Shown here: piece by piece, positions 25,210 through 44,409 of the stretch | Position numbering within the stretch: the first letter of the stretch is position 1 | Layout: the number at the start of each line of letters is the position of its first letter | Source: an uncultured Eubacteriales bacterium | GTDB taxonomy: Bacteria > Bacillota > Clostridia > Christensenellales > CAG-138 | Assembly (NCBI GenBank): GCA_902761365.1 | Contig: CACWJZ010000023.1 | Location: forward strand, 1 to 54,430 | Length of the DNA stretch: 54,430 bases | Reading direction: 5' to 3' | The notes under the pieces: generated by a model | The model's input: the letters and a program-made list of their open reading frames with translations, nothing else | Database searches by the model: none | What the model was told of the DNA's origin: nothing | Position numbers and translations under genes: made by a program

Positions 25210-26184
25210 ATGCTCTTTGACCTCGTCGCGCCCCATACCACCGTCTGCCTTGCGGGGATGTGCAAGAATGCGGGGAAGACCACTGCGCTGAACGCCCTCA
25301 TTCGTGGGGCCAGGGCGCGGGGCGTCGTCCTTGCGCTCACCTCCATAGGTCGGGACGGGGAGCGGGAGGACCTGGTCACCGGCACCTGCAAGCCCCCCAT
25401 CTACGTGACGGGGGGCACCTTGTTCGCCACGGCCCGGGGGCTGCTCCCCAAGTGCGACGTGACGGGGGAGATGTTGGACATGACCGGCATCCACACCCCC
25501 CTCGGTGAGGTGGCGATCCTGCGGGCCCTGTCCGACGGGTTCGTGGAGCTGGCGGGCCCATCCATGACGGATCAGATCGTGGCCCTGACGGAGAGGCTCA
25601 AGCGCTTCGGCGCCCAGAAAGTCCTGATCGACGGGGCACTGTTCCGCCGGAGCCTGTGCGCCCCCGAGGCGGCGGAAGGGGTCATCCTCTCCACCGGCGC
25701 CAGCTACGGCCCGGACATGGGGAAGACCGTGGCGGACACGGCCTTTGTGGCCGAGCTTCTGTCCCTGCCGGTCAGCGGCCCCTGGCCCGAGATGGCGGGC
25801 CGTCGCGTTGCCCGAAGGGCGGGGGAGATCGCGGCCCTCTTCGACGAGCTGCCCGCCGCCCTGGAGGGGCAGGGGGAAGCCCTCTTCGTCACCGGCGCCT
25901 TCACCGACGCCATGGCGGCATCGCTCCTGCGGCGCAAGAGCATCCCCCAGGAGATCGCAGTGGAGGACGGCACCCGGTTGCTGCTCTCTCGGGAGAACTA
26001 TGAAAAGCTCCGGGCCCGGGGCGTCGCATTCCGGGTCCGCCGTCAAAACACCCTGGTCGCCGTGACCGTGAACCCCTTCTCCGCCTATGGTGCGCCGTAC
26101 GACCCCGCCGCCTTCCAGCAGCTGGTGGCGGAGAAGGTGGACGTGCCCGTGGTGAACGTGCGGGAGGAGACTCAATGGAATTGA
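25210..26184 (+). CDS. kamB: Lysine 5,6-aminomutase reactivase subunit KamB
   Basis: A 324-residue protein with an N-terminal P-loop (CLAGMCKNAGKTTALNALI, about residues 14-32) and no close match to common GTPases. Its pairing with a MutS-like gene next to lysine-fermentation genes identifies it as KamB of the clostridial lysine cluster, which together with KamC is thought to exchange damaged cobalamin in lysine 5,6-aminomutase. Further conserved stretches are LTSIGRDGEREDLVTGTCKP and VLIDGALFRRSL. It starts three bases after the broken nucleotidyltransferase without a clear ribosome site and overlaps kamC by ten bases. It lies upstream of, not behind, the lysine riboswitch. Confidence 0.85.
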   Translation: MLFDLVAPHTTVCLAGMCKNAGKTTALNALIRGARARGVVLALTSIGRDGEREDLVTGTCKPPIYVTGGTLFATARGLLPKCDVTGEMLDMTGIHTPLGEVAILRALSDGFVELAGPSMTDQIVALTERLKRFGAQKVLIDGALFRRSLCAPEAAEGVILSTGASYGPDMGKTVADTAFVAELLSLPVSGPWPEMAGRRVARRAGEIAALFDELPAALEGQGEALFVTGAFTDAMAASLLRRKSIPQEIAVEDGTRLLLSRENYEKLRARGVAFRVRRQNTLVAVTVNPFSAYGAPYDPAAFQQLVAEKVDVPVVNVREETQWN

Positions 26185-27635
26185 ATCTACAGCAGCAACA
26201 GGATATAGGCCTGGACTTCGTGCTGGACCGGCTCTTGCCCCTAAGCCCTCTGGGCCGGGAGAAAAAGCGGGCCCTGCGCCCCTATGCCCGTTCGGAACGG
26301 GATGCCCTGCAAATGGAGCTGGAAAACCTGGGCAAGGCCGTGGCCCTGGGAGACGAGCCCGCCCTGCGCCGCTTCCGGCAGGGGCTGATGCAGCTTCGGG
26401 ACATCCGCGGCACCGTCTCCCGCCTGAAGGAACGGGATCTCGATCAGGTGGAGCTCTTTGAGCTCAAGCAGTATCTGCTGCTCCTGCGGGGCCTCGCTTC
26501 GGACTTCGACGAGCTGCAAGCGTCTGCCCATTGGGAAGGGCTCGTGCTTCAGGCCATGCCGGAGGCCCTGGCCATCCTGGACCCGGAGAACTCCGGCAAC
26601 CCGGCCTTCTCCCTGCGGGACCAGTGGTCGGGGGAATTGGCCGCCGTCCGCGAGGAAAAGCGGGCCATGGAAAAGCAGATCGCCCAGGCCGCCGGGGAAG
26701 ATAGGGAAGCCCTGCTCCTGCAGCGCACGGGGATCGTCCTTCGGGAAGCTGAGGCGGAGCAGCATCTATGCGCTGAGCTCTCTCAAAAATTGACGCCGTA
26801 TGCAGATGTTTTAGCCCAAAGCCTGGACATGCTGGGCCGTCTGGACCTGCTGTTTGCCAAGGCCGCCCTGGTTCGGGAGCTGGGCTGCGTCCAGCCGGTT
26901 CTTACAGATAACGAGCTGTCCTTCGTGAACATGGTCCATCCCGCCATCAGGGACAGCCTGCAGCGACAGGGGGCCGCCTTCACGCCCCTCAGTCTGTCCC
27001 TCGACCCCGGGGCCGCCGTGCTCACCGGGGCCAACATGGGCGGCAAGAGCGTGTGTCTCAAGACCCTGGCCTTGAATGTCTATTTGACCCATTGCGGTCT
27101 GTTCCCCTGCGCCGAAGAGGCGGCGGTGCCCTTCTTCGACGGCCTGTGCCTGGTCCGGGGGGAGGGGGAGGACGGCCGGGAGGGCCTTTCCTCCTTCGGC
27201 GGGGAACTCATGGCGGCGGACGCGGCCGCCCGGGCCGTGCAGCATGGCTTCTGCCTGGTCCTCTTCGACGAGTTCGCCCGGGGCACCAACCCCGCCGAGG
27301 CCGTGAAGCTCCAGCAGGGGGCCCTCGGTTACTTCAACGCTTCCGGCTCCATCTGCCTCTTCGTCACCCACTACGAGGCCGTGGCCGCCCGAGCGAGCCG
27401 CCGCTTCCTCACCCGGGGCATCCGGGACCTGAACGTGGCGGAAGGCCGTCGCCTCATGGAAGCCGGGGTCGACAAGCTCACGGTCCTGCGCCGGTTCATG
27501 GATTACGGCATCGAGGAGATCATCGACGCCGCCGTCCCCCAAAAGGCCCTCTCCGTGGCCGAGCTCCTGGGGGTGGAGGAGGGGCTCCTTTTAGCCATCC
27601 GGCAGGAATACATGCGCGAAAGGAACGAACCATGA
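26175..27635 (+). CDS. kamC: Lysine 5,6-aminomutase reactivase ATPase KamC, MutS-like
   Basis: A 486-residue protein with the ABC-type ATPase core of the MutS family: Walker A GANMGGKSVCLKT (Gly285, Lys291, Ser292), GLSSFGGELM (signature-like region) and Walker B CLVLFDEFARGTNP, then a His switch in FVTHYEA. It lacks the mismatch-binding and lever domains of a true MutS, keeping instead a helical N-terminus (1-240) with heptad-like charge patterns. KamB/KamC are known companions of kamDE in lysine-fermenting bacteria; reactivation of the B12 enzyme is the accepted proposal. GGAGGAGA precedes the ATG. The gene ends in an ATGA overlap with a zinc-ribbon gene. Confidence 0.88.
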   Translation: MELNLQQQQDIGLDFVLDRLLPLSPLGREKKRALRPYARSERDALQMELENLGKAVALGDEPALRRFRQGLMQLRDIRGTVSRLKERDLDQVELFELKQYLLLLRGLASDFDELQASAHWEGLVLQAMPEALAILDPENSGNPAFSLRDQWSGELAAVREEKRAMEKQIAQAAGEDREALLLQRTGIVLREAEAEQHLCAELSQKLTPYADVLAQSLDMLGRLDLLFAKAALVRELGCVQPVLTDNELSFVNMVHPAIRDSLQRQGAAFTPLSLSLDPGAAVLTGANMGGKSVCLKTLALNVYLTHCGLFPCAEEAAVPFFDGLCLVRGEGEDGREGLSSFGGELMAADAAARAVQHGFCLVLFDEFARGTNPAEAVKLQQGALGYFNASGSICLFVTHYEAVAARASRRFLTRGIRDLNVAEGRRLMEAGVDKLTVLRRFMDYGIEEIIDAAVPQKALSVAELLGVEEGLLLAIRQEYMRERNEP

Positions 27636-28126
27636 TGATCCCGGACCGCATAAAACAAAGCTTTTTGCTCACCGATCAAAGGCAGGATGGAGAGAACGCT
27701 CTGATCAGCGGGCGACTTATATGCTGCGGCCAATCCGATTTTTCCCTTCGTGTCGTTGGGACCATGCATCGAGGCCTTTTCCATCGGATGAACCTGTACC
27801 CCGGTGGAGAAGGGCTTGCTTTAGGCGCGACATGCGCTAAATGCGGAAAGAGGATCCTGGTATTCGATGACAAATCCGACGGATATGATACCTGCTTTTC
27901 CGCAACAGGAGAAACATCCTTTTCAACAGCAGGGCCGGTGCGGTGCGCCAAATGCGGGGGAGAATCCTTTTCCGTGGATCTGCGCTTTGAATATCCCGAC
28001 GAACGGGAGTTGGCCGACCTGGACTGTGCGACACCGGAGAATGCCTTCACCTGGATTTGGGCGTCTCTGACCTGCGCCGGATGCGGAAAAAAGTATACGG
28101 ATTTCATCAGCAGCGAAACGGTGTAA
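27632..28126 (+). CDS. Hypothetical protein with two CxxC zinc-ribbon pairs
   Basis: A 164-residue soluble protein coupled to kamC by an ATGA overlap. Three CxxC pairs are visible: CAKC (about 69-72), CAKC (about 106-109) and CAGC (about 149-152), suggesting bound zinc. The sequence between them is acidic and aromatic, with strand-forming stretches (SFSVDLRFEYPDERELADLDC, FTWIWASLTCAGCGKKYTDF). I do not recognise a family. Codon use is less GC-biased than in kamBC, so the gene may have joined the operon later. The fixed junction suggests a link to KamBC, but this is inference only. Confidence 0.7.
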   Translation: MMIPDRIKQSFLLTDQRQDGENALISGRLICCGQSDFSLRVVGTMHRGLFHRMNLYPGGEGLALGATCAKCGKRILVFDDKSDGYDTCFSATGETSFSTAGPVRCAKCGGESFSVDLRFEYPDERELADLDCATPENAFTWIWASLTCAGCGKKYTDFISSETV

Positions 28127-28170
28127 GCACGTTGGCGCTTGAGGAAGCAGGAATATATGACCCATCCCGA

Positions 28171-28200
28171 TTGACAAAGCGGCAACCTTTTTGATACAAT
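28171..28200 (+). promoter_or_regulatory. Promoter of the lysine fermentation operon
   Basis: TTGACA (28171-28176), 18-base spacer, TACAAT (28195-28200). The predicted start near 28207 is just upstream of the riboswitch aptamer. Confidence 0.85.
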
Positions 28201-28214
28201 AGCTACAACAGAAT

Positions 28215-28387
28215 ATGGTGGATAGAGGCGCGGCGCGCAGGGTACCCGGCGGGGAAAACGGGCGAACGGTCCCCCGGGAAAGGGGCGTAGCCGCCGAAAG
28301 AGGAGGGAGCTTCGCCGCTTCCGCTTCTTGGGGGCCGGGTGGACATTAGCTCGGCCACTGTCGTCTGTATGGATGAAGCGCTATCGA
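28215..28387 (+). ncRNA. Lysine (L-box) riboswitch aptamer
   Basis: Conserved L-box blocks occur in the right order: GATAGAGGCGCG (28221-28232), AGGGTA (28239-28244, variant of AGAGTA), GGAAAGGGGCGTAGCCGCCG ending in AAAG, GGCCGGGTGGACATTAG, CCACTGTCG, and the P1 3' strand GCGCTATC (28378-28385). The closing helix is GATAG (28221-28225) with CTATC (28381-28385), as in the Thermotoga type. It lies between a sigma-A promoter and kal. The 3' strand of P1 is shared with the following terminator, predicting lysine-induced antitermination. The rest of the gap 28127-28547 has only the terminator and one REP-like palindrome. Confidence 0.88.
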
Positions 28388-28417
28388 TACGGCTTTGACC
28401 GCGTCGATAGCTTTTTT
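28380..28417 (+). terminator. Riboswitch-controlled terminator
   Basis: GCTATCGA (28380-28387) pairs with TCGATAGC (28404-28411), with an inner CGG/CCG helix and six following T residues. Bases 28381-28385 are also the 3' strand of riboswitch helix P1, so the two structures exclude each other. Confidence 0.88.
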
Positions 28418-28478
28418 CATGGACGGAGCGCTATGGGAAGGTCTTTCTTTCCATGGCGTTTTTCTTTGGAAAGGCCCT

Positions 28479-28503
28479 GTAGGGGAGGGGCTTGCCCCTC
28501 CCG
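28479..28503. repeat. REP-like palindromic element, copy 3
   Basis: GTAGGGGAGGGGC-TT-GCCCCTCCCG, a near-perfect hairpin between the riboswitch terminator and the kal ribosome site. It closely matches copy 2 at 17369. Confidence 0.7.
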
Positions 28504-28547
28504 GGATAAATGAATAAAAGGATAAAAATGTATAAGGAGGCAGGAGT

Positions 28548-28931
28548 ATGCAAGTGACCATTCGGGTGCGCATGAGCGCCCACGACGCCCACTACGGCGG
28601 GAATTTGGTGGACGGCGCGAAGATGCTGGAGCTGTTCGGGGACGTAGCCACGGAGTTGTTGATCCGTCGGGACGGGGACGAGGGCCTGTTCTGTGCCTAC
28701 GACATGGTGGAGTTCAAGGCGCCGGTGTACGCCGGGGACTTCATCGAGGCGACCGGTGAGATCGTGTCAGAGGGCAACACCTCCCGGAAGATGGTCTTTG
28801 AGGCCCGGAAGGTCATCACCGCCCGGCCGGACATCAACGATTCCGCGGCGGAAGTGCTGGCCGAGCCCATCCTGGTCTGCCGGGCCAGCGGCACCTGCGT
28901 GACCCCCAAGGATAAACAAAGGAACAACTAA
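28548..28931 (+). CDS. kal: 3-aminobutyryl-CoA ammonia lyase
   Basis: Removes ammonia from L-3-aminobutyryl-CoA to give crotonyl-CoA, a late step of lysine fermentation to butyrate. The 127-residue protein has the single hotdog fold of the family; [31 protein letters not shown], with the conserved [10 protein letters not shown] element, is characteristic. AAGGAGGCAGGAGT precedes the ATG. It is the first gene behind the lysine riboswitch and is one base away from kce. The assignment is strengthened by the complete set of pathway partners downstream. Confidence 0.93.
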
Positions 28932-28932
28932 G

Positions 28933-29775
28933 ATGGAGAAATTGATCATCACCGCCGCCATCTGCGGCGCGGAAGTCACCAAGCAGCAGAACCCTGCCGT
29001 CCCCTACACCGTGGAGGAGATGGTCCGGGAGGCCCGGTCCGCCTATGACGCCGGCGCGGCCATCATCCACGTCCACGTCCGTTGGGACGACGGCACCCCC
29101 ACCCAGGACCGGGAGCGGTTCAGGGTGGTCATGGACGCCATTCGGGCGGAGCTCCCCGACGTGATCATGATCCCCTCCACCGGCGGCGCCACGGGCATGA
29201 AGCCAGAGGAGCGGCTGCAGCCCACGGAGCTGTTCCCGGAGATGGCCACCCTCGATTGTGGGACCTGCAACTTCGGCGACGAGATCTTTGACAACACCAT
29301 GCCCACCATGCGGGCCTTCGGCAAGCGGATGATCGAGAACCATATCAAGCCCGAGTACGAATGCTTTGAGATGGGCCATCTTGACACCATCCTGACCATG
29401 GCCCGCAAGGGGGAGGTCCCTGGCGCGCCAATGCAGTTCAACTTCGTGTTGGGCGTTCCCGGCTGTTCTCCCGCCACGGTGCAGAACCTGGTCTGGATGG
29501 CCAGCGCCATCCCCGCCGGTTCCACCTGGACCGCCACGGGCGTGGGCCGCAGCGCCTTCACCTTGGCAGCTCCCGCCATCGTCATGGGTGGCAACGTCCG
29601 GGTGGGCTTTGAGGACAACCTCTACCTCTCCCGGGGCGTGAAGGCCAGGAGCAACGGCGAGCTGGTGGAGAAGGTGGTGCGCCTCAGCCGGGAGTTGGGC
29701 CGGGAGATCGCCTCTCCCGCGGAAGCTCGGGCCATCCTGGGCCTCATCGGCGGCCCCAACCGCCCCGTTCACTGA
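28933..29775 (+). CDS. kce: 3-keto-5-aminohexanoate cleavage enzyme
   Basis: A zinc enzyme that condenses 3-keto-5-aminohexanoate with acetyl-CoA and yields acetoacetate and 3-aminobutyryl-CoA. The 280-residue TIM-barrel protein (BKACE family) shows the metal-binding HVHVRWDDG motif near residue 46, the initial IITAAICGAEVTKQQNPAVP, and later CNFGDEIFDN and GNVRVGFEDNLYLSRGV, all typical. Length is standard. AAAGGAACAACTAAG precedes the ATG. It lies between kal, which uses its product, and kdd, which supplies its substrate. Confidence 0.95.
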   Translation: MEKLIITAAICGAEVTKQQNPAVPYTVEEMVREARSAYDAGAAIIHVHVRWDDGTPTQDRERFRVVMDAIRAELPDVIMIPSTGGATGMKPEERLQPTELFPEMATLDCGTCNFGDEIFDNTMPTMRAFGKRMIENHIKPEYECFEMGHLDTILTMARKGEVPGAPMQFNFVLGVPGCSPATVQNLVWMASAIPAGSTWTATGVGRSAFTLAAPAIVMGGNVRVGFEDNLYLSRGVKARSNGELVEKVVRLSRELGREIASPAEARAILGLIGGPNRPVH

Positions 29776-29826: not shown

Positions 29827-30867
29827 ATGGCACTCAAAGGCAACAAGTACGGCACCCATCGCGTCATCGAGCCCAAGGGCGTGCTCACCCAGGCGGCTTA
29901 CAAGATCGACAACAACATGGACGTTCTCTACTCCAACGAGATCATCTGCGACGTCCAGTCCCTGAACATCGACTCCGCCTCCTTCACCCAGATCGAGGAA
30001 GCCTGCGGCGGCGACGAGAAGAAGATCGGCGAGATGATCATGGGGATCGTAGGTGAGCGGGGCAAGCAGCAGAACCCCGTCACCGGCTCCGGCGGCATGT
30101 TCATCGGCACCGTGGCCTACATCGGCGAGGACTTGAAGGATCGGGATCTGAAGGTGGGCGACAAGATCGCCTCCTTGGTCTCCCTGTCCCTGACTCCGCT
30201 GCGCATCGACAAGATCCTGGCCGTCCACAAGGACATCGACCGGGTGGACATCGTGGGCAAGGCCGTGCTCTTTGAGAGTGGCATCTACGCCAAGCTCCCC
30301 AGCGACATGAGCGAAGCCCTGGCCCTGGCCGCTCTCGACGTGGCCGGCGCCCCCGCCCAGGCCCGCAAGCTCCCCAAGGAGGGCGATTCCGTCCTGATCC
30401 TGGGCGCCAACGGCAAGAGCGCGGTTCTCTGCGGCTACGAGGCCATGAAGAAGGTGGGCCCCACCGGCAACGTGGTGGGTCTCGTCAAGAACCCCAAGCA
30501 GGTCCCCGCCCTCATGGAGCTGGGCGTGTACCACAAGGTCATCGTGGCCTCCGCTACGGAGCCCGTGGCGGTGCTGGAGGCGGCCCTCGCAGCCAACGGC
30601 GGCAAGGAGTACGACATCTCCATCTGCTGCGTGAACCAGCCCAACTGCGAGATGAGCGCCATTCTGCCTGTGCGGGACGACGGCCTCGTATACTTCTTCT
30701 CCATGGCCACCAGCTTCACCAAGGCAGCCTTGGGTGCTGAGGGCATCGGCAAGGACGTGAACATGATCATCGGCAACGGCTACACCAAGGACCACGCCGA
30801 GATCACCCTGAACGTGCTGCGCGAAAATCCGAAACTGCGGGCCCTGTTCGACGAGAAATACGTATAA
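29827..30867 (+). CDS. kdd: L-erythro-3,5-diaminohexanoate dehydrogenase
   Basis: NAD(P)-dependent oxidative deamination of 3,5-diaminohexanoate to 3-keto-5-aminohexanoate. The 346-residue sequence starts GNKYGTHRVIEPKGVLTQAAYKIDN as in known Kdd proteins, with a nucleotide-binding segment around SVLILGANGKSAVLCGYEAMKK (about 180-200). The ribosome site is ACGGAGG. The gene follows kce after 51 bases and is separated from kamA by 284 bases of strong hairpins. Whether kamADE is transcribed through from kal or from an unseen promoter is not clear. Confidence 0.95.
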   Translation: MALKGNKYGTHRVIEPKGVLTQAAYKIDNNMDVLYSNEIICDVQSLNIDSASFTQIEEACGGDEKKIGEMIMGIVGERGKQQNPVTGSGGMFIGTVAYIGEDLKDRDLKVGDKIASLVSLSLTPLRIDKILAVHKDIDRVDIVGKAVLFESGIYAKLPSDMSEALALAALDVAGAPAQARKLPKEGDSVLILGANGKSAVLCGYEAMKKVGPTGNVVGLVKNPKQVPALMELGVYHKVIVASATEPVAVLEAALAANGGKEYDISICCVNQPNCEMSAILPVRDDGLVYFFSMATSFTKAALGAEGIGKDVNMIIGNGYTKDHAEITLNVLRENPKLRALFDEKYV

Positions 30868-31151: not shown

Positions 31152-32411
31152 ATGCATTTTGAGAATTATGCCCGGAAGAACGGGCTGTTCCGGGATGTGC
31201 CGGATGAACTGTGGAACGACTGGCACTGGCAGGTCAAGAACCGGGTGGAGACCCTGGAGGACCTGAAGAAGTATCTAAACCTGACCGAGGAAGAGGAGGA
31301 GGGCGTGCGCCGGACGCTGGGGCGCTTGCGCATGGCCATCACCCCCTACTACCTGTCCCTCATCGATCTCGAGGATGAATATGACCCCATCCGCCGCCAG
31401 GCGGTGCCCACGGCCCATGAGCTGGAATCGGCCCCCTACGAGGCGGCCGACCCCCTCCACGAGGACACGGATTCCCCCGTGAAGGGCCTGACCCACCGGT
31501 ACCCCGACCGGGTGCTGTTTCTGGTCACGGACCAGTGCTCCATGTACTGCCGCCACTGCACCCGCCGCCGGTTCGCCGGACAGACGGACTGCGCCGTGCC
31601 CATGGAGCAGATCGAGAAGTGCATCGAGTACATCCGGCAGCACGAGGAGGTCCGGGACGTGCTCCTTTCCGGCGGCGACGCCCTCATGTTGGGGGATGGG
31701 CTCCTGGAGCGGATCATCGCCGAGCTTCGGACCATCGAGCACGTGGAGATCATCCGCATCGGCTCCCGGACACCCGTGGTCTGCCCCCAGCGGATCACGC
31801 CGGAGCTGTGCGCCATGCTGAAGAAGTACCACCCCATCTGGGTCAACACCCACTTCAACCATCCCAACGAGATCACCCCCGAAGCGGCGGCGGCCTGCGC
31901 ACGCCTCGCCGATGCGGGCATCCCCCTGGGGAATCAGAGCGTGCTCCTGGCGGGCGTCAACGACTGCGTCCACGTGATGAAGAAGCTGGTGAACGAGCTG
32001 GTCTACATCCGGGTCCGTCCCTACTACATCTATGCTTGCGACCCCTCCCTGGGTCTCAGCCACTTCCGTACTCCGGTATCGAAGGGCATCGAGATCATGG
32101 AGGGCCTTCGGGGCCACACCAGCGGCCTGTGCGTGCCCACCTTCGTGGTGGACGCCCCCGGCGGTGGAGGCAAGACCCCGGTGATGCCCACCTACCTGAT
32201 TTCCCAGAAGCCCGGGAAGATCGTTCTTCGGAACTTCGAGGGCGTCATCACCACCTATTCCGAGCCCACTCACTATGAGGAGAACTGCCATTGCCCCGTG
32301 TGCACCGGCAAGCGGCAGGTGAACAAGGTGGGCGTAGCGGGCCTGGAGCAGGGCATGGAGCAGAAGTACATGACGCCCAAGGGCCTGTTGAGAGAGGAAC
32401 GGACAAAGTAA
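31152..32411 (+). CDS. kamA: L-lysine 2,3-aminomutase
   Basis: Radical SAM and PLP enzyme converting L-lysine to L-beta-lysine, the entry to this fermentation. Of 419 residues (usual 410-420), Cys129, Cys133 and Cys136 (CSMYCRHC) bind the [4Fe-4S] cluster. The family start FENYARKNGLFRDVPDELWNDW and the C-terminal PTFVVDAPGGGGKTPVMP, which includes the PLP lysine region, are present. Zinc-ligand cysteines at the C-terminus are seen in ENCHCPVCTGK. AAAGGAG lies nine bases before the ATG. The stop codon overlaps the kamD start (TAATG). Confidence 0.97.
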   Translation: MHFENYARKNGLFRDVPDELWNDWHWQVKNRVETLEDLKKYLNLTEEEEEGVRRTLGRLRMAITPYYLSLIDLEDEYDPIRRQAVPTAHELESAPYEAADPLHEDTDSPVKGLTHRYPDRVLFLVTDQCSMYCRHCTRRRFAGQTDCAVPMEQIEKCIEYIRQHEEVRDVLLSGGDALMLGDGLLERIIAELRTIEHVEIIRIGSRTPVVCPQRITPELCAMLKKYHPIWVNTHFNHPNEITPEAAAACARLADAGIPLGNQSVLLAGVNDCVHVMKKLVNELVYIRVRPYYIYACDPSLGLSHFRTPVSKGIEIMEGLRGHTSGLCVPTFVVDAPGGGGKTPVMPTYLISQKPGKIVLRNFEGVITTYSEPTHYEENCHCPVCTGKRQVNKVGVAGLEQGMEQKYMTPKGLLREERTK

Positions 32412-33967
32412 TGGCATCCAAGCTGAATCTGGATCAAAACAAGGTCAACAGGGCCAGGGCCGCCGCCCGACAGGTGGCCCTGGACACCCAGGCTTTCATC
32501 GATCAGCACACCACGGTCACCGTGGAGCGAGCGGTCTGCCGGCTGCTCCTCATCGACGGGGTGAACGAGGTGGGCGTGCCCCTGCCCAACGTGGTGGTGG
32601 ACCACCTGCTGGACAAGGGGCTGCTGCCCTACGGGGCGGCTTACGCCCTGGGCAACGCCATGGCGGAAACGGGCCTGACGCCCCAGGAGATCGCCGAGGC
32701 GGTGGACAAGGGGGAGCTGGACCTATCAAAGGTGGCGCCCCACAGCTTAGACGAGATCAAGGCCGCCATCGAGCCCACGGCGAGGGCCAGCGTAGAGCGC
32801 ATCCGGCAGAACGTGGCCCGGCGGAACGAGTATCTATCCGCATACGGCGATAAGGAAGGCCCCTACCTCTACGTCATCGTGGCCACGGGCAACATCTATG
32901 AGGACATCGTCCAGGCCAAGGCTGCCGCCCGGCAGGGGGCGGACGTGATCGCGGTCATCCGCACCACGGGCCAGAGCCTCCTCGATTACGTGCCCTACGG
33001 GGCTACCACCGAGGGCTTCGGCGGCACCTACGCCACCCAGGAGAACTTCCGGCTCATGCGGGCGGCTCTCGACGAGGTGGGGGCGGAGGAGCACCGGTAC
33101 ATTCGCCTGTGCAACTACTGCTCCGGCCTGTGCATGCCGGAGATCGCCGCCATGGGAGCTCTCGAACGGCTGGACGTGATGCTCAACGACGCCCTCTACG
33201 GCATCCTTTTCCGGGACATCAATATGCAGCGGACGCTGATCGATCAGAGCTTCTCCCGCCGGATCAACGCCTTTGCGGGCGTCATCATCAACACGGGCGA
33301 GGACAACTACCTGACCACGGCGGACGCGGTGGAGGAGGCCCACACGGTCCTCGCGAGCCAGTTCCTCAACGAGCAGTTCGCCCTCTGCGCGGGGCTCCCC
33401 GAGGAGCAACAGGGTTTGGGCCATGCCTTCGAGATCGACCCCGCCCGGGAGAACGGCTTCCTCTATGAGCTCGCCCAGGCCCAGATGGCCCGGGAGATCT
33501 TCCCCAAGGCGCCCTTGAAGTACATGCCGCCCACCAAGTTTATGACGGGCAACATCTTTAGGGGCCACGTGCAGGATGCCCTCTTCAACATGGTCACCAT
33601 CCTGACCGGCCAGAAGATCCATCTTCTCGGCATGATGACCGAAGCCATCCACACCCCCTTCATGTCCGATCGAGCCCTGTCCATCGAGAACGCCCGATAC
33701 GTGTTCAACACCATGAAGGACCTGGGGGAGGAGATGACCTTCAAGCCCGACGGCATCATGGCTCACCGGGCGGACGAGGTGCTCACCAAGGCCGCGGACC
33801 TGCTGGAAAAGATCGAGCATGACGGCCTCTTCGCCACCTTGGAGCGGGGCACCTTCGCCGACATCAAGCGCATGCGGGACGGCGGCAAGGGTCTTGGGGG
33901 CGTGGTGCTGCGTTCGGAGGGGTACTACAATCCCTTCCTTAGCCTGTTAGCGGGAGGTGCCAAATGA
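32411..33967 (+). CDS. kamD: Lysine 5,6-aminomutase alpha subunit
   Basis: Large PLP-binding subunit of the adenosylcobalamin-dependent mutase that moves the terminal amino group of beta-lysine to carbon 5. Length is 518 residues, as in known proteins. It starts MASKLNLDQNKVNRARAAAR and contains the TIM-barrel stretches GATTEGFGGTYATQENFRLMR and YRIRLCNYCSGLCMPEIAAMG-like segments and KYMPPTKFMTGNIFRGH. The ATG at 32411 is one base inside the kamA stop, with GAGAGGAA upstream. It ends in an ATGA overlap with kamE, as expected for equal synthesis of two subunits. Confidence 0.96.
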   Translation: MASKLNLDQNKVNRARAAARQVALDTQAFIDQHTTVTVERAVCRLLLIDGVNEVGVPLPNVVVDHLLDKGLLPYGAAYALGNAMAETGLTPQEIAEAVDKGELDLSKVAPHSLDEIKAAIEPTARASVERIRQNVARRNEYLSAYGDKEGPYLYVIVATGNIYEDIVQAKAAARQGADVIAVIRTTGQSLLDYVPYGATTEGFGGTYATQENFRLMRAALDEVGAEEHRYIRLCNYCSGLCMPEIAAMGALERLDVMLNDALYGILFRDINMQRTLIDQSFSRRINAFAGVIINTGEDNYLTTADAVEEAHTVLASQFLNEQFALCAGLPEEQQGLGHAFEIDPARENGFLYELAQAQMAREIFPKAPLKYMPPTKFMTGNIFRGHVQDALFNMVTILTGQKIHLLGMMTEAIHTPFMSDRALSIENARYVFNTMKDLGEEMTFKPDGIMAHRADEVLTKAADLLEKIEHDGLFATLERGTFADIKRMRDGGKGLGGVVLRSEGYYNPFLSLLAGGAK

Positions 33968-34755
33968 GCGGCGGACTCTATGATATGAGCGTCAAGAGCT
34001 TTGATCGGACCCTCGACTTGACCCGGATCAAAGCCTATGGCGACACCATGAACGACGGCAAGGTGCAGCTGAGCTTCACCCTGCCCGTGAAGGACGACGA
34101 GAAGGGCATGGAGGCCGCCCGGCAGCTGGCCCGAAAGATGGGCATTGAGGAGCCCAACGTGGCCGGGGCCGTCAAGCTGGACGAAGATTTCACCTTCTAT
34201 GTGGTCTACGGCTCCTGCATCCATACAGTGGACTATGAGCACATCGAGGTCAAGACCGTGGAGAGCAGCGTCATGTCCATGGAGGAGGTCAACGAATACA
34301 TCCGCAGCCACTTCGGCCGCAAGCTGGTGTTCGTGGGCGCGTCCACGGGCACGGACGCCCACACCGTAGGCATCGACGCCATCATGAATCGCAAGGGCTT
34401 CGCAGGCCACTACGGTCTCGAGCGTTACGAGATGATCGAGGCCTACAACCTGGGGGCCCAGGTGGAGAACGAGGAGTTCGTCCGCAAGGCCGTGGCCCTG
34501 AACGCGGACGTGCTGCTGGTGTCCCAGACCGTGACCCAGAAGGACGTGCATATCCAGAACATGACGGAGCTCATCGAGCTTTTGGAGGCGGAGGGCTTGC
34601 GCTCCCGGTTCGTGGTCATCTGCGGCGGCGCCCGGATCACCCACGAGCTGGCCAAGGAGCTGGGCTTCGACGCGGGCTTTGGCCCACGCAAGTTCGCCGA
34701 GGACGTGGCTTCCTTCGCTGTGGAGGAGCTGACGCGCAGGGGATTGGACCGCTGA
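33964..34755 (+). CDS. kamE: Lysine 5,6-aminomutase beta subunit
   Basis: Cobalamin-binding subunit of the KamDE mutase, 263 residues. The base-off/His-on motif is D131-A-H133-T-V-G136, followed by the Rossmann-like B12 domain with EAYNLGAQV, VLLVSQTVTQKDVHIQNM and FVVICGGARITHELAKELGFDAGFG. The N-terminal 100 residues form the dimerisation domain that starts DMSVKSFDRTLDLTRIKAYGD. GGGAGG is six bases from the ATG, and the start overlaps the kamD stop. Reactivation by KamBC, encoded 6 kb upstream, is expected. Confidence 0.96.
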   Translation: MSGGLYDMSVKSFDRTLDLTRIKAYGDTMNDGKVQLSFTLPVKDDEKGMEAARQLARKMGIEEPNVAGAVKLDEDFTFYVVYGSCIHTVDYEHIEVKTVESSVMSMEEVNEYIRSHFGRKLVFVGASTGTDAHTVGIDAIMNRKGFAGHYGLERYEMIEAYNLGAQVENEEFVRKAVALNADVLLVSQTVTQKDVHIQNMTELIELLEAEGLRSRFVVICGGARITHELAKELGFDAGFGPRKFAEDVASFAVEELTRRGLDR

Positions 34756-34766
34756 ACGGAGGGACT

Positions 34767-35183
34767 ATGGATATCCTTATCATCGACGGCCAGGGCGGGA
34801 ACCTGGGCCGGATGCTGACCCGGCGACTCAGGGAGGCTTTGCCTCAGGCGGACATCGTTGCCGTGGGCACCAACTCCACCGCCACGGAGAATATGCTCAA
34901 GGGCGGCGCCGACCGGGCCGCCACGGGGGAGAATGCCGTGGTGGTCAACGCCCGCCGGGCCAGGGTCATCACCGGCCCATTGGGCATCGTCATTGCGGAC
35001 GCCCTTATGGGGGAGGTGACTCCCGCCATGGCCATGGCCGTAGGCACGAGCGATGCCGTCCGGGTGCTCATCCCCATGAACCGTTGCGACACCCTGGTGG
35101 CCGGCGTGGCGGAAAAGCCCATGGGCGAGCTCGTGGAGGACGCCGTGCGCCGGATCGTGGGCCTGTTGGCAAAAGCGGATTGA
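34767..35183 (+). CDS. DUF3842 family protein
   Basis: A 138-residue protein matching DUF3842: it starts MDILIIDGQGGNLGRMLTRR, with a Rossmann-like Gly-rich turn, and continues VAVGTNSTATENMLKGGADRAATGENAV and ITGPLGIVIADALMGEVTPAMAMAVGTS. Members are common in Clostridia, but no function is known to me. It is 11 bases behind kamE with a good GGAGGG site, so it is probably the last gene of the lysine operon. Its stop codon lies inside the -35 box of the next promoter. Confidence 0.85.
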   Translation: MDILIIDGQGGNLGRMLTRRLREALPQADIVAVGTNSTATENMLKGGADRAATGENAVVVNARRARVITGPLGIVIADALMGEVTPAMAMAVGTSDAVRVLIPMNRCDTLVAGVAEKPMGELVEDAVRRIVGLLAKAD

Positions 35184-35209: not shown

Positions 35210-35286
35210 GCTTCTGTCGGCAGGAAGCCGGCCCAGGGCTGCACGCCCCATACCAATACTACTCATTTTGAACGGATGCTTTGAAG

Positions 35287-35322
35287 GCATCGCCTTTCGT
35301 GAACGAAGGGCGGTGCTTTTTT
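35287..35322 (+). terminator. Attenuator-like terminator in the S-component leader
   Basis: GCATCGCCTTTCG, loop TGAA, CGAAGGGCGGTGC and six T residues, placed between the promoter and the ribosome site of its gene (ATG at 35344). Such placement implies regulated read-through. Confidence 0.85.
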
Positions 35323-35343
35323 GCATTCCAGAAAGGAATCTGT

Positions 35344-35877
35344 ATGAAAAACAAGAACGTTTTGAAGCTGACCTATGCGGGCCTCTGCCTGGCCCTGTGC
35401 CTGGTGCTGCCCTTTCTGACGGGCCAGATCCCCCAGATCGGCAGCAAGCTGCTGCCCATGCATATCCCCGTGCTCCTGTGCGGCTTCCTCTGCGGGCCGG
35501 TGTGGGGCCTTGGGGTGGGCCTGGTGGCGCCCATCCTGCGCTCCCTTCTCTTCGGCATGCCGCCCCTGTTCCCCACGGCCACGGCCATGGCCTTCGAGCT
35601 GGCGGCCTACGGCCTGCTCGCCGGTCTCTTCTATAAGCTCCTGCCCAAGAAGACCCCCTATCTCTATGTGGCTCTGATCCTCGCCATGCTGGGGGGCCGG
35701 CTGGTCTGGGGCCTCGCCATGACCGTCCTTATGGGCGTCAGCGGCAAAAGCTTCTCCCTGGCCGCCTTCTGGGCGGGCGCCTTCGCCAACGCCTGGCCGG
35801 GCATCATCCTGCAGCTGGTCCTGATCCCGCCGGTGGTGGCGGCCCTTAAAAAGGCCAAGCTCATGCTGAACGAATAG
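35344..35877 (+). CDS. ECF transporter S component
   Basis: A 177-residue integral membrane protein with about six helices. The N-terminal LKLTYAGLCLALCLVLPFLTGQIPQIGSKLLPMHIPVLLCGFLCGP is typical of substrate-binding S components that dock on a shared EcfA/EcfA'/EcfT module, which is not encoded here. The motif PMHIPVLLCGF is shared by many S subunits and does not settle the substrate; a vitamin or precursor is likely. AGAAAGGA precedes the ATG. Expression is probably controlled by the attenuator directly upstream, whose ligand is unknown. Confidence 0.88.
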   Translation: MKNKNVLKLTYAGLCLALCLVLPFLTGQIPQIGSKLLPMHIPVLLCGFLCGPVWGLGVGLVAPILRSLLFGMPPLFPTATAMAFELAAYGLLAGLFYKLLPKKTPYLYVALILAMLGGRLVWGLAMTVLMGVSGKSFSLAAFWAGAFANAWPGIILQLVLIPPVVAALKKAKLMLNE

Positions 35878-44333: not shown

Positions 44334-44409
44334 GCGCCCATAGCTCAGCGGATAGAGTGCCCGGCTACGAACCGGTAGGTCGAGAGTTCGAATCTCCCTG
44401 GGCGCGCCA
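44334..44409 (+). tRNA. tRNA-Arg, anticodon ACG
   Basis: A 76-base cloverleaf with acceptor stem GCGCCCA/TGGGCGC, D arm GCTC...GAGT, anticodon stem-loop around CTACGAA (anticodon ACG at 44367-44369), T arm with GTTCGAATC, discriminator G and encoded CCA. ACG is edited to ICG and reads CGU/CGC/CGA. The top pair of the anticodon stem (C-T) is a mismatch. A terminator follows at three bases. Confidence 0.95.

Follow-up and report, generated by a model that had tools for sequence, protein, structure and literature searches.

The window, the whole 54,430-nt stretch of DNA analysed here, carries an operon for lysine fermentation, kal-kce-kdd-kamADE, preceded by a leader with a lysine riboswitch (Table 1). 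All six genes pass their NCBIfam cut-offs, in agreement with the names given to them in an earlier sequence-only reading of the locus. The Rfam model RF00168 matched the leader on the forward strand with 67.8 bits (E-value 1.2e-15), over positions 1–182 of the 182 in the model. The gathering score is 30 bits, and the aptamer thus belongs to the RF00168 family by the curated cut-off and over the full model. The same reading had recognised an L-box from the letters, had placed its GATAG and CTATC strands correctly and had proposed this covariance-model search. A predicted promoter lies just 5' of the aptamer, and a similar arrangement is visible in the upstream part of the leaders from the same genus.

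The genes kamB (NF052386) and kamC (NF052383), for the lysine 5,6-aminomutase reactivase, are found at 25210–27635 of the window. They lie upstream of the riboswitch and are therefore probably outside its control. After kamE there is a DUF3842 gene (34767–35183) and a gene for the substrate-specific subunit of an ECF transporter (35281–35877). A tRNA-Arg (acg) gene is located at 44334–44409.

Table 1. Features of the kal leader and operon, in window coordinates.
Feature	Position	Strand	Basis or remark
Promoter-like TTGACA-18-TACAAT (predicted)	28171–28200	+	11/12 consensus bases
Lysine riboswitch aptamer (RF00168)	28215–28391	+	Rfam model match
P1 5' strand GATAG	28221–28225	+	Model alignment and sequence
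P5 5' strand TCGTCTG	28361–28367	+	Pairing possible with either copy
Copy 1 of the aptamer 3' closing half	28370–28385	+	RF00168 alignment
Copy 1, P5 3' strand	28370–28376	+	
Copy 1, J5/1	28377–28380	+	
Copy 1, P1 3' strand CTATC	28381–28385	+	
Terminator-like hairpin T1 + T6	28380–28417 (stem 28380–28411; TTTTTT 28412–28417)	+	P1 3' strand in 5' arm
Copy 2 of the aptamer 3' closing half	28420–28434	+	Near-copy of copy 1, P5 pairing
Copy 2, P5 3' strand TGGACGG	28420–28426	+	
Copy 2, J5/1 AGCG	28427–28430	+	
Copy 2, P1 3' strand CTAT	28431–28434	+	
Terminator-like hairpin T2 + T5	28429–28463 (stem 28429–28458; TTTTT 28459–28463)	+	
Shine-Dalgarno-like AAGGAGG	28534–28540	+	Sequence
kal, 3-aminobutyryl-CoA ammonia lyase	28548–28931	+	NF052388, 200.5 bits, cut-off 160
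kce, 3-keto-5-aminohexanoate cleavage enzyme	28933–29775	+	NF052387, 412.4, cut-off 382
kdd, L-erythro-3,5-diaminohexanoate dehydrogenase	29827–30867	+	NF052381, 261.6, cut-off 200
kamA, lysine 2,3-aminomutase	31152–32411	+	TIGR03820, 607, cut-off 525.4
kamD, lysine 5,6-aminomutase alpha	32435–33967	+	NF052384, 911.3, cut-off 600
kamE, lysine 5,6-aminomutase beta	33964–34755	+	NF052385, 401.1, cut-off 280

The first hairpin and the direction of control

The terminator-like hairpin T1 is made of 12 pairs with one A–C mismatch and folds at −18.1 kcal/mol (z −4.8). A chance hairpin is ruled out, since none of 200 shuffled sequences folded as low and the arrangement recurs across the family (see below). 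P1 and T1 are mutually exclusive because the P1 3' strand and the 5' arm of T1 share positions 28381–28385. Against the reading of the two hairpins as terminators, a simple consensus scan listed none in 28100–28600 or 28360–28490. Our guess is that this may be owed to the mismatch in T1 and, for the second hairpin T2, to an extension of the stem into the T-run by G–U and A–U pairs. The counts given here come from a second terminator scan, as a scan that permitted branched folds produced stems that were too long.

From the family to which the window belongs, 103 genomes were sampled, and KAL was above the cut-off in 69 of them. An RF00168 match is present upstream of kal, on the same strand and within 302 nt, in 62 of the 69. 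Laxer filters gave a match in five of the remaining seven kal leaders; these five were used in the copy-2 tests and are outside the 62 of the overlap count. In the last two leaders the letters of an aptamer are visible, yet RF00168 had no match even with laxer filters. In 60 of the 62 kal leaders, a terminator-like hairpin includes the P1 3' strand in its 5' arm; the same holds for 7 of the 38 lysine riboswitches found before other genes in the family (Fisher p = 8e-17, uncorrected for relatedness). The two exceptions among the kal leaders are G098, with two shared bases, and G059, and three of the seven overlapping hairpins outside kal are weak (about −10 kcal/mol). At position 5 of P1, the same base can pair with either partner in 53 of the 60 leaders, through several pair types. 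The overlap between P1 and the terminator is a conserved design of kal leaders.

An aptamer closing strand within the 5' arm of a terminator is the mark of an ON riboswitch, and T1 contains 28381–28385. Lysine-stabilised P1 is predicted to capture the 5' strand of T1, and ON logic, taken alone, is very probable. The lysine riboswitches of biosynthesis genes in B. subtilis and E. coli are OFF switches according to the accessible part of PMC11477304, and termination promoted by lysine would be the usual arrangement. For the kal leader we consider this highly improbable. With the P1 3' strand inside the 5' arm of the terminator, as in 60 of the 62 kal leaders, a P1 stabilised by ligand disfavours T1, and the downstream genes degrade lysine. 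Moreover, the corresponding proteins of Intestinimonas AF211 were up approximately 10-fold on lysine, with Kal not detected (PMC4697335; the word 'riboswitch' is absent from the accessible part of that text).

The sequence-only reading had placed CTATC in the 5' arm of a terminator, with two helices that cannot form together, and had proposed that lysine turns the operon on by blocking that terminator. The overlap is as described there, and the ON logic fits both the sequence and the design shared by the kal leaders. The mechanism, however, was incomplete, since T2 was missed: both copy 2 and T2 are positioned just past the end of the interval considered (28417). Blocking T1 alone would be insufficient because T2, a stable hairpin with a T-run, would still stop transcription.

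The arrangement of aptamer and kal extends beyond the family. The KAL protein search gave identities of 91–99% among the at least 120 matches listed, and distant relatives were sought by genome searches. In the order and class samples, 10 of 31 above-cut-off KAL leaders have an aptamer within 700 bases upstream. There were 80 genome-contig loci in all; the genomes of 47 were searched and 34 of those were checked for position. The aptamer lies at most 1.5 kb before kal at 23 of the 34 loci (three of them on the same contigs as the order sample) and approximately 1.7 kb upstream at two more. The other 13 genomes comprised 10 family members already counted and three of Bacteroidales type, in which RF00168 had no match genome-wide. 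At L256 and L257 (family f4), another open frame seems by eye to be interposed between the lysine riboswitch and kal. The pooled set held 100 leaders, of which 97 are distinct.

A second closing half and its hairpin

Downstream of T1, the 3' closing half of the aptamer occurs a second time as copy 2. The P5 5' strand matches copy 2 at 7/7 positions. P1 forms four pairs with copy 2 and five with copy 1, which counts against a hand-over of the aptamer from one copy to the other. Within copy 2, the P1 3' strand and some of J5/1 fall in the 5' arm of T2. T2 folds at −20.8 kcal/mol (z −6.3), and 0/200 shuffles were as low. The spacing between the copies is 50 nt in the window and 49–112 nt across leaders, which is too short for a second full aptamer at copy 2 and excludes one. 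As read from the sequence, the leader holds one aptamer, two closing halves and two T-run hairpins, with each half and its own hairpin competing for shared bases.

Twelve genomes of the same genus were seen, and 10 of them have KAL (the two without a KAL match are G002 and G008). The 17-letter stretch TGGACGGAGCGCTATGG is invariant in all 10 kal leaders, whereas differences occur in copy 1 and in the loops of the hairpins. This is conservation and not covariation, as no copy-2 pair within the genus changed on both sides. Within the genus, conservation is higher in copy 2 than in copy 1. This speaks against a plain ON switch at T1, in which T2 would be weak or a backup, blind to lysine, and copy 2 a leftover of duplication. 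The T1–P1 overlap would suffice for ON logic, and genera g2 and g40 have no other design: a second core was found in 0/29 of their leaders (one unanchored). Still, an unsensed T2 of this stability with five T would lower expression even at high lysine, and we regard the plain switch as improbable. With T2 present, we infer that lysine must also act on T2, or else the operon stays low.

Second cores were sought in the 97 distinct leaders, 11 of which had no placement. A second core was found in 28 of the 86 placed leaders against 3.0 expected (maximum 8 in 500 simulations), and one with 4/4 P5 pairs in 22 of the 86 against a simulated mean of 0.008 (maximum 1 in 500 runs); P5 was misplaced in L156, L157 and L255 of this set. 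Improved anchors covered 87 of the 97 leaders, with 10 left out. They placed copy 2 in 28 kal leaders from 11 lineages, and 137/140 P5 positions pair. L255 is still misanchored in this set (4/5 pairs; the Rfam alignment shows another P5), and L154 was removed by hand (29 to 28 leaders), as its second core sits at the ribosome-binding site. With one leader per lineage, 53/55 P5 pairs form, a value reached in 0.25% of draws with the P5 strands of other leaders. P5 CGUC faces GACG of copy 2 in genus g1, P5 CAUC faces GAUG or GGUG, P5 CAUU (one leader) faces GAUG, and P5 CAUG faces CAUG or CGUG. A g5 leader has P5 CGUC with GAUG via G–U, and two Lachnospiraceae have P5 CAUG with AAUG, with one mismatch. 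None of the 38 non-kal lysine riboswitches (one without a P5 anchor) has a fully P5-paired second core; two of them have a later core within 250 nt.

Of 27 leaders, 22 have a T-run hairpin that overlaps copy 2 (L116 is outside the 27). The other five (G024, G071, G072, L112 and L142) lack one, and this also counts against a hand-over. A second listing of copy-2 leaders without a T-run hairpin there gives L112, L142, L175, L179 and L196. In some leaders (L145, L149) the best T2 stem extends into the P5 part of copy 2, and this part may thus be kept for T2. The complementarity of copy 2 and P5 may also be inherited by descent from copy 1.

In two relatives, copy 2 is a usable aptamer half according to the Rfam model. 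Truncated ahead of copy 2, the G003 leader scores 54.6 bits; when copy 2 is available, it scores 54.7 bits, with T1 within a 51-nt insert. G493 scores 47.9 bits on copy 1 (stricter filters; same contig via L115) against 61.2 bits on copy 2. The model chooses copy 2 in G006 and copy 1 in the window; the latter choice weighs against the mechanism proposed below.

Proposed control of two terminators by one aptamer

On balance, we favour a mechanism in which the 3' closing half of the RF00168 aptamer before the kal operon is doubled, each half overlaps the 5' arm of a terminator-like hairpin, and lysine would block first T1 and then T2 to turn the operon on. As the polymerase passes T1, lysine would keep P1 shut on copy 1, and T1 would be blocked. 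Later, T1 would fold behind the polymerase within an enlarged P5 loop. The lysine-bound (or re-bound) aptamer would then re-close on copy 2, and T2 would be blocked until the polymerase is gone. Without lysine, transcription would end at either hairpin, and therefore low leakage and a steep response are expected. Of these steps, the hand-over between the two copies is the one of which we are least sure, and we give it slightly less than an even chance. It would need a P5 strand, a junction and a P1 strand, which would account for their retention in copy 2. In general terms, there may be one sensor with two gates, the bound aptamer passing its closing strand from T1 to T2 along with the polymerase, in several lineages of lysine-fermenting Clostridia; we put this forward tentatively.

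Folding energies were calculated along the transcript. Before the 3' arm of T2 emerges (28436–28456 in the window), closing P1 costs, relative to the free fold, 1.7–4.7 kcal/mol on copy 2 and 5.5–9.5 kcal/mol on copy 1. Copy-2 closure is the cheaper in 27/27 leaders at this stage, in part since T1 is then free to fold. When the whole of T2 is present (from 28458 on), the cost in the window is 8.7–13.5 kcal/mol on copy 2 and 6.0–8.3 kcal/mol on copy 1. These later costs favour copy 1, and control at T2 would therefore have to be kinetic. Kinetic control is usual for riboswitches of this kind.

T2 could instead be reached by a relay, in which lysine holds copy 1 in P1 and the freed 3' arm of T1 pairs with copy 2 as an antiterminator for T2, so that the aptamer itself would at no point close again on copy 2. 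The stretch of RNA that separates the copies, with the T1 3' arm included, can form duplexes with the copy-2 region at −6.4 to −24.5 kcal/mol in all 19 leaders tested (of 28). The duplex of the window reaches −12.9 kcal/mol, but it is interrupted by bulges and is weaker than T2. Pairing of this sort is the likely design of the kal leaders of Clostridium and Thermoanaerobacter, judging from the predicted duplexes. In the six leaders of this type tested (L110, L084, L128, L133, L134 and L139), the 3' part of the first hairpin forms a predicted duplex of −12.1 to −18.8 kcal/mol with the region of the second terminator's 5' arm, and no copy-2 core was found in these six. By eye, the first hairpin is without a clear T-run in L133, L134 and L139. 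For the leader described here, a relay is the main rival of the favoured mechanism, but we judge it unlikely. Nothing in a relay requires copy 2 to keep a P5 3' strand, and this strand pairs with P5 across 11 lineages and does not vary within the genus. Hand-over and relay are not mutually exclusive.

Parts of this arrangement have precedents, and the sequence-only reading had doubted full novelty with good reason. Lysine riboswitches before kal/kce have been described as 'positively regulated' in C. sticklandii, F. nucleatum and Thermoanaerobacter (PMC5584792). They share ligand class, target genes and the positive regulation predicted here; expression-platform anatomy, a second closing half and a second terminator are not described in the accessible part of that paper. 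ON riboswitches that bury terminator pieces include certain glycine, adenine and lysine riboswitches (PMC2258182). In these, as here, aptamer and terminator compete directly, with no separate antiterminator, but a doubled closing half is not described in the accessible part. The kal leader agrees with the L-box of RF00168 in aptamer sequence and in consensus structure along the entire model. It differs in having the P1 3' strand directly within the 5' arm of a terminator and in carrying the 3' closing half twice. Tandem 'pseudo-cooperative' riboswitches, with 14 double lysine riboswitches among them, likewise make two serial terminator decisions on one ligand, and a steeper response is expected of them (PMC9481103). 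These are two riboswitches, each with its own aptamer. The kal leader has a single RF00168 match and not two complete aptamers: one aptamer body has two alternative 3' halves, and the two expression platforms in series, T1 and T2, are a structural prediction.

One aptamer with two platforms is not described as a class in the accessible part of PMC9481103, and a doubled closing half is not described in those of PMC12452182, PMC9337991, PMC2965389, PMC10907184 and PMC11477304. A kal leader with one aptamer and two terminators was not found in print within the open-access literature searched. As far as these partial texts go, kal lysine riboswitches and ON logic that buries a terminator are known already, and the doubled closing half is apparently new. 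Tandem riboswitches steepen the response by doubling the whole riboswitch. If the proposed mechanism is true, the same steepening would come from doubling approximately 15 nt only, the strand contested by sensor and terminator. It would add a class of 'single aptamer, several platforms', provide a test case for co-transcriptional strand hand-over, and explain how lysine fermentation stays off until lysine is abundant.

Lysine riboswitches before other genes

The window genome has three lysine riboswitches in all. The P1–terminator overlap is absent from the other two (L228 and L231), which precede an antiporter gene (sub-cut-off match), taken to be of NhaC type, and lysA. These two riboswitches probably use the opposite logic. 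The identities of non-kal genes across the family were taken from the first letters of the proteins. We presume on this basis that most of the 38 non-kal riboswitches precede NhaC-type antiporters, lysA, lysC, dapA or amino-acid binding proteins, with L216, L230 and L241 excepted. When six of the genes were compared with family models, lysA, aspartate kinase and dapA passed the cut-off, and two antiporters and a binding protein gave sub-cut-off matches. Three non-kal riboswitches, L212, L213 and L227, carry the P1–terminator overlap typical of kal leaders. They presumably precede NhaC-type antiporter genes, and the arrangement would suggest ON control of these genes, perhaps of export.
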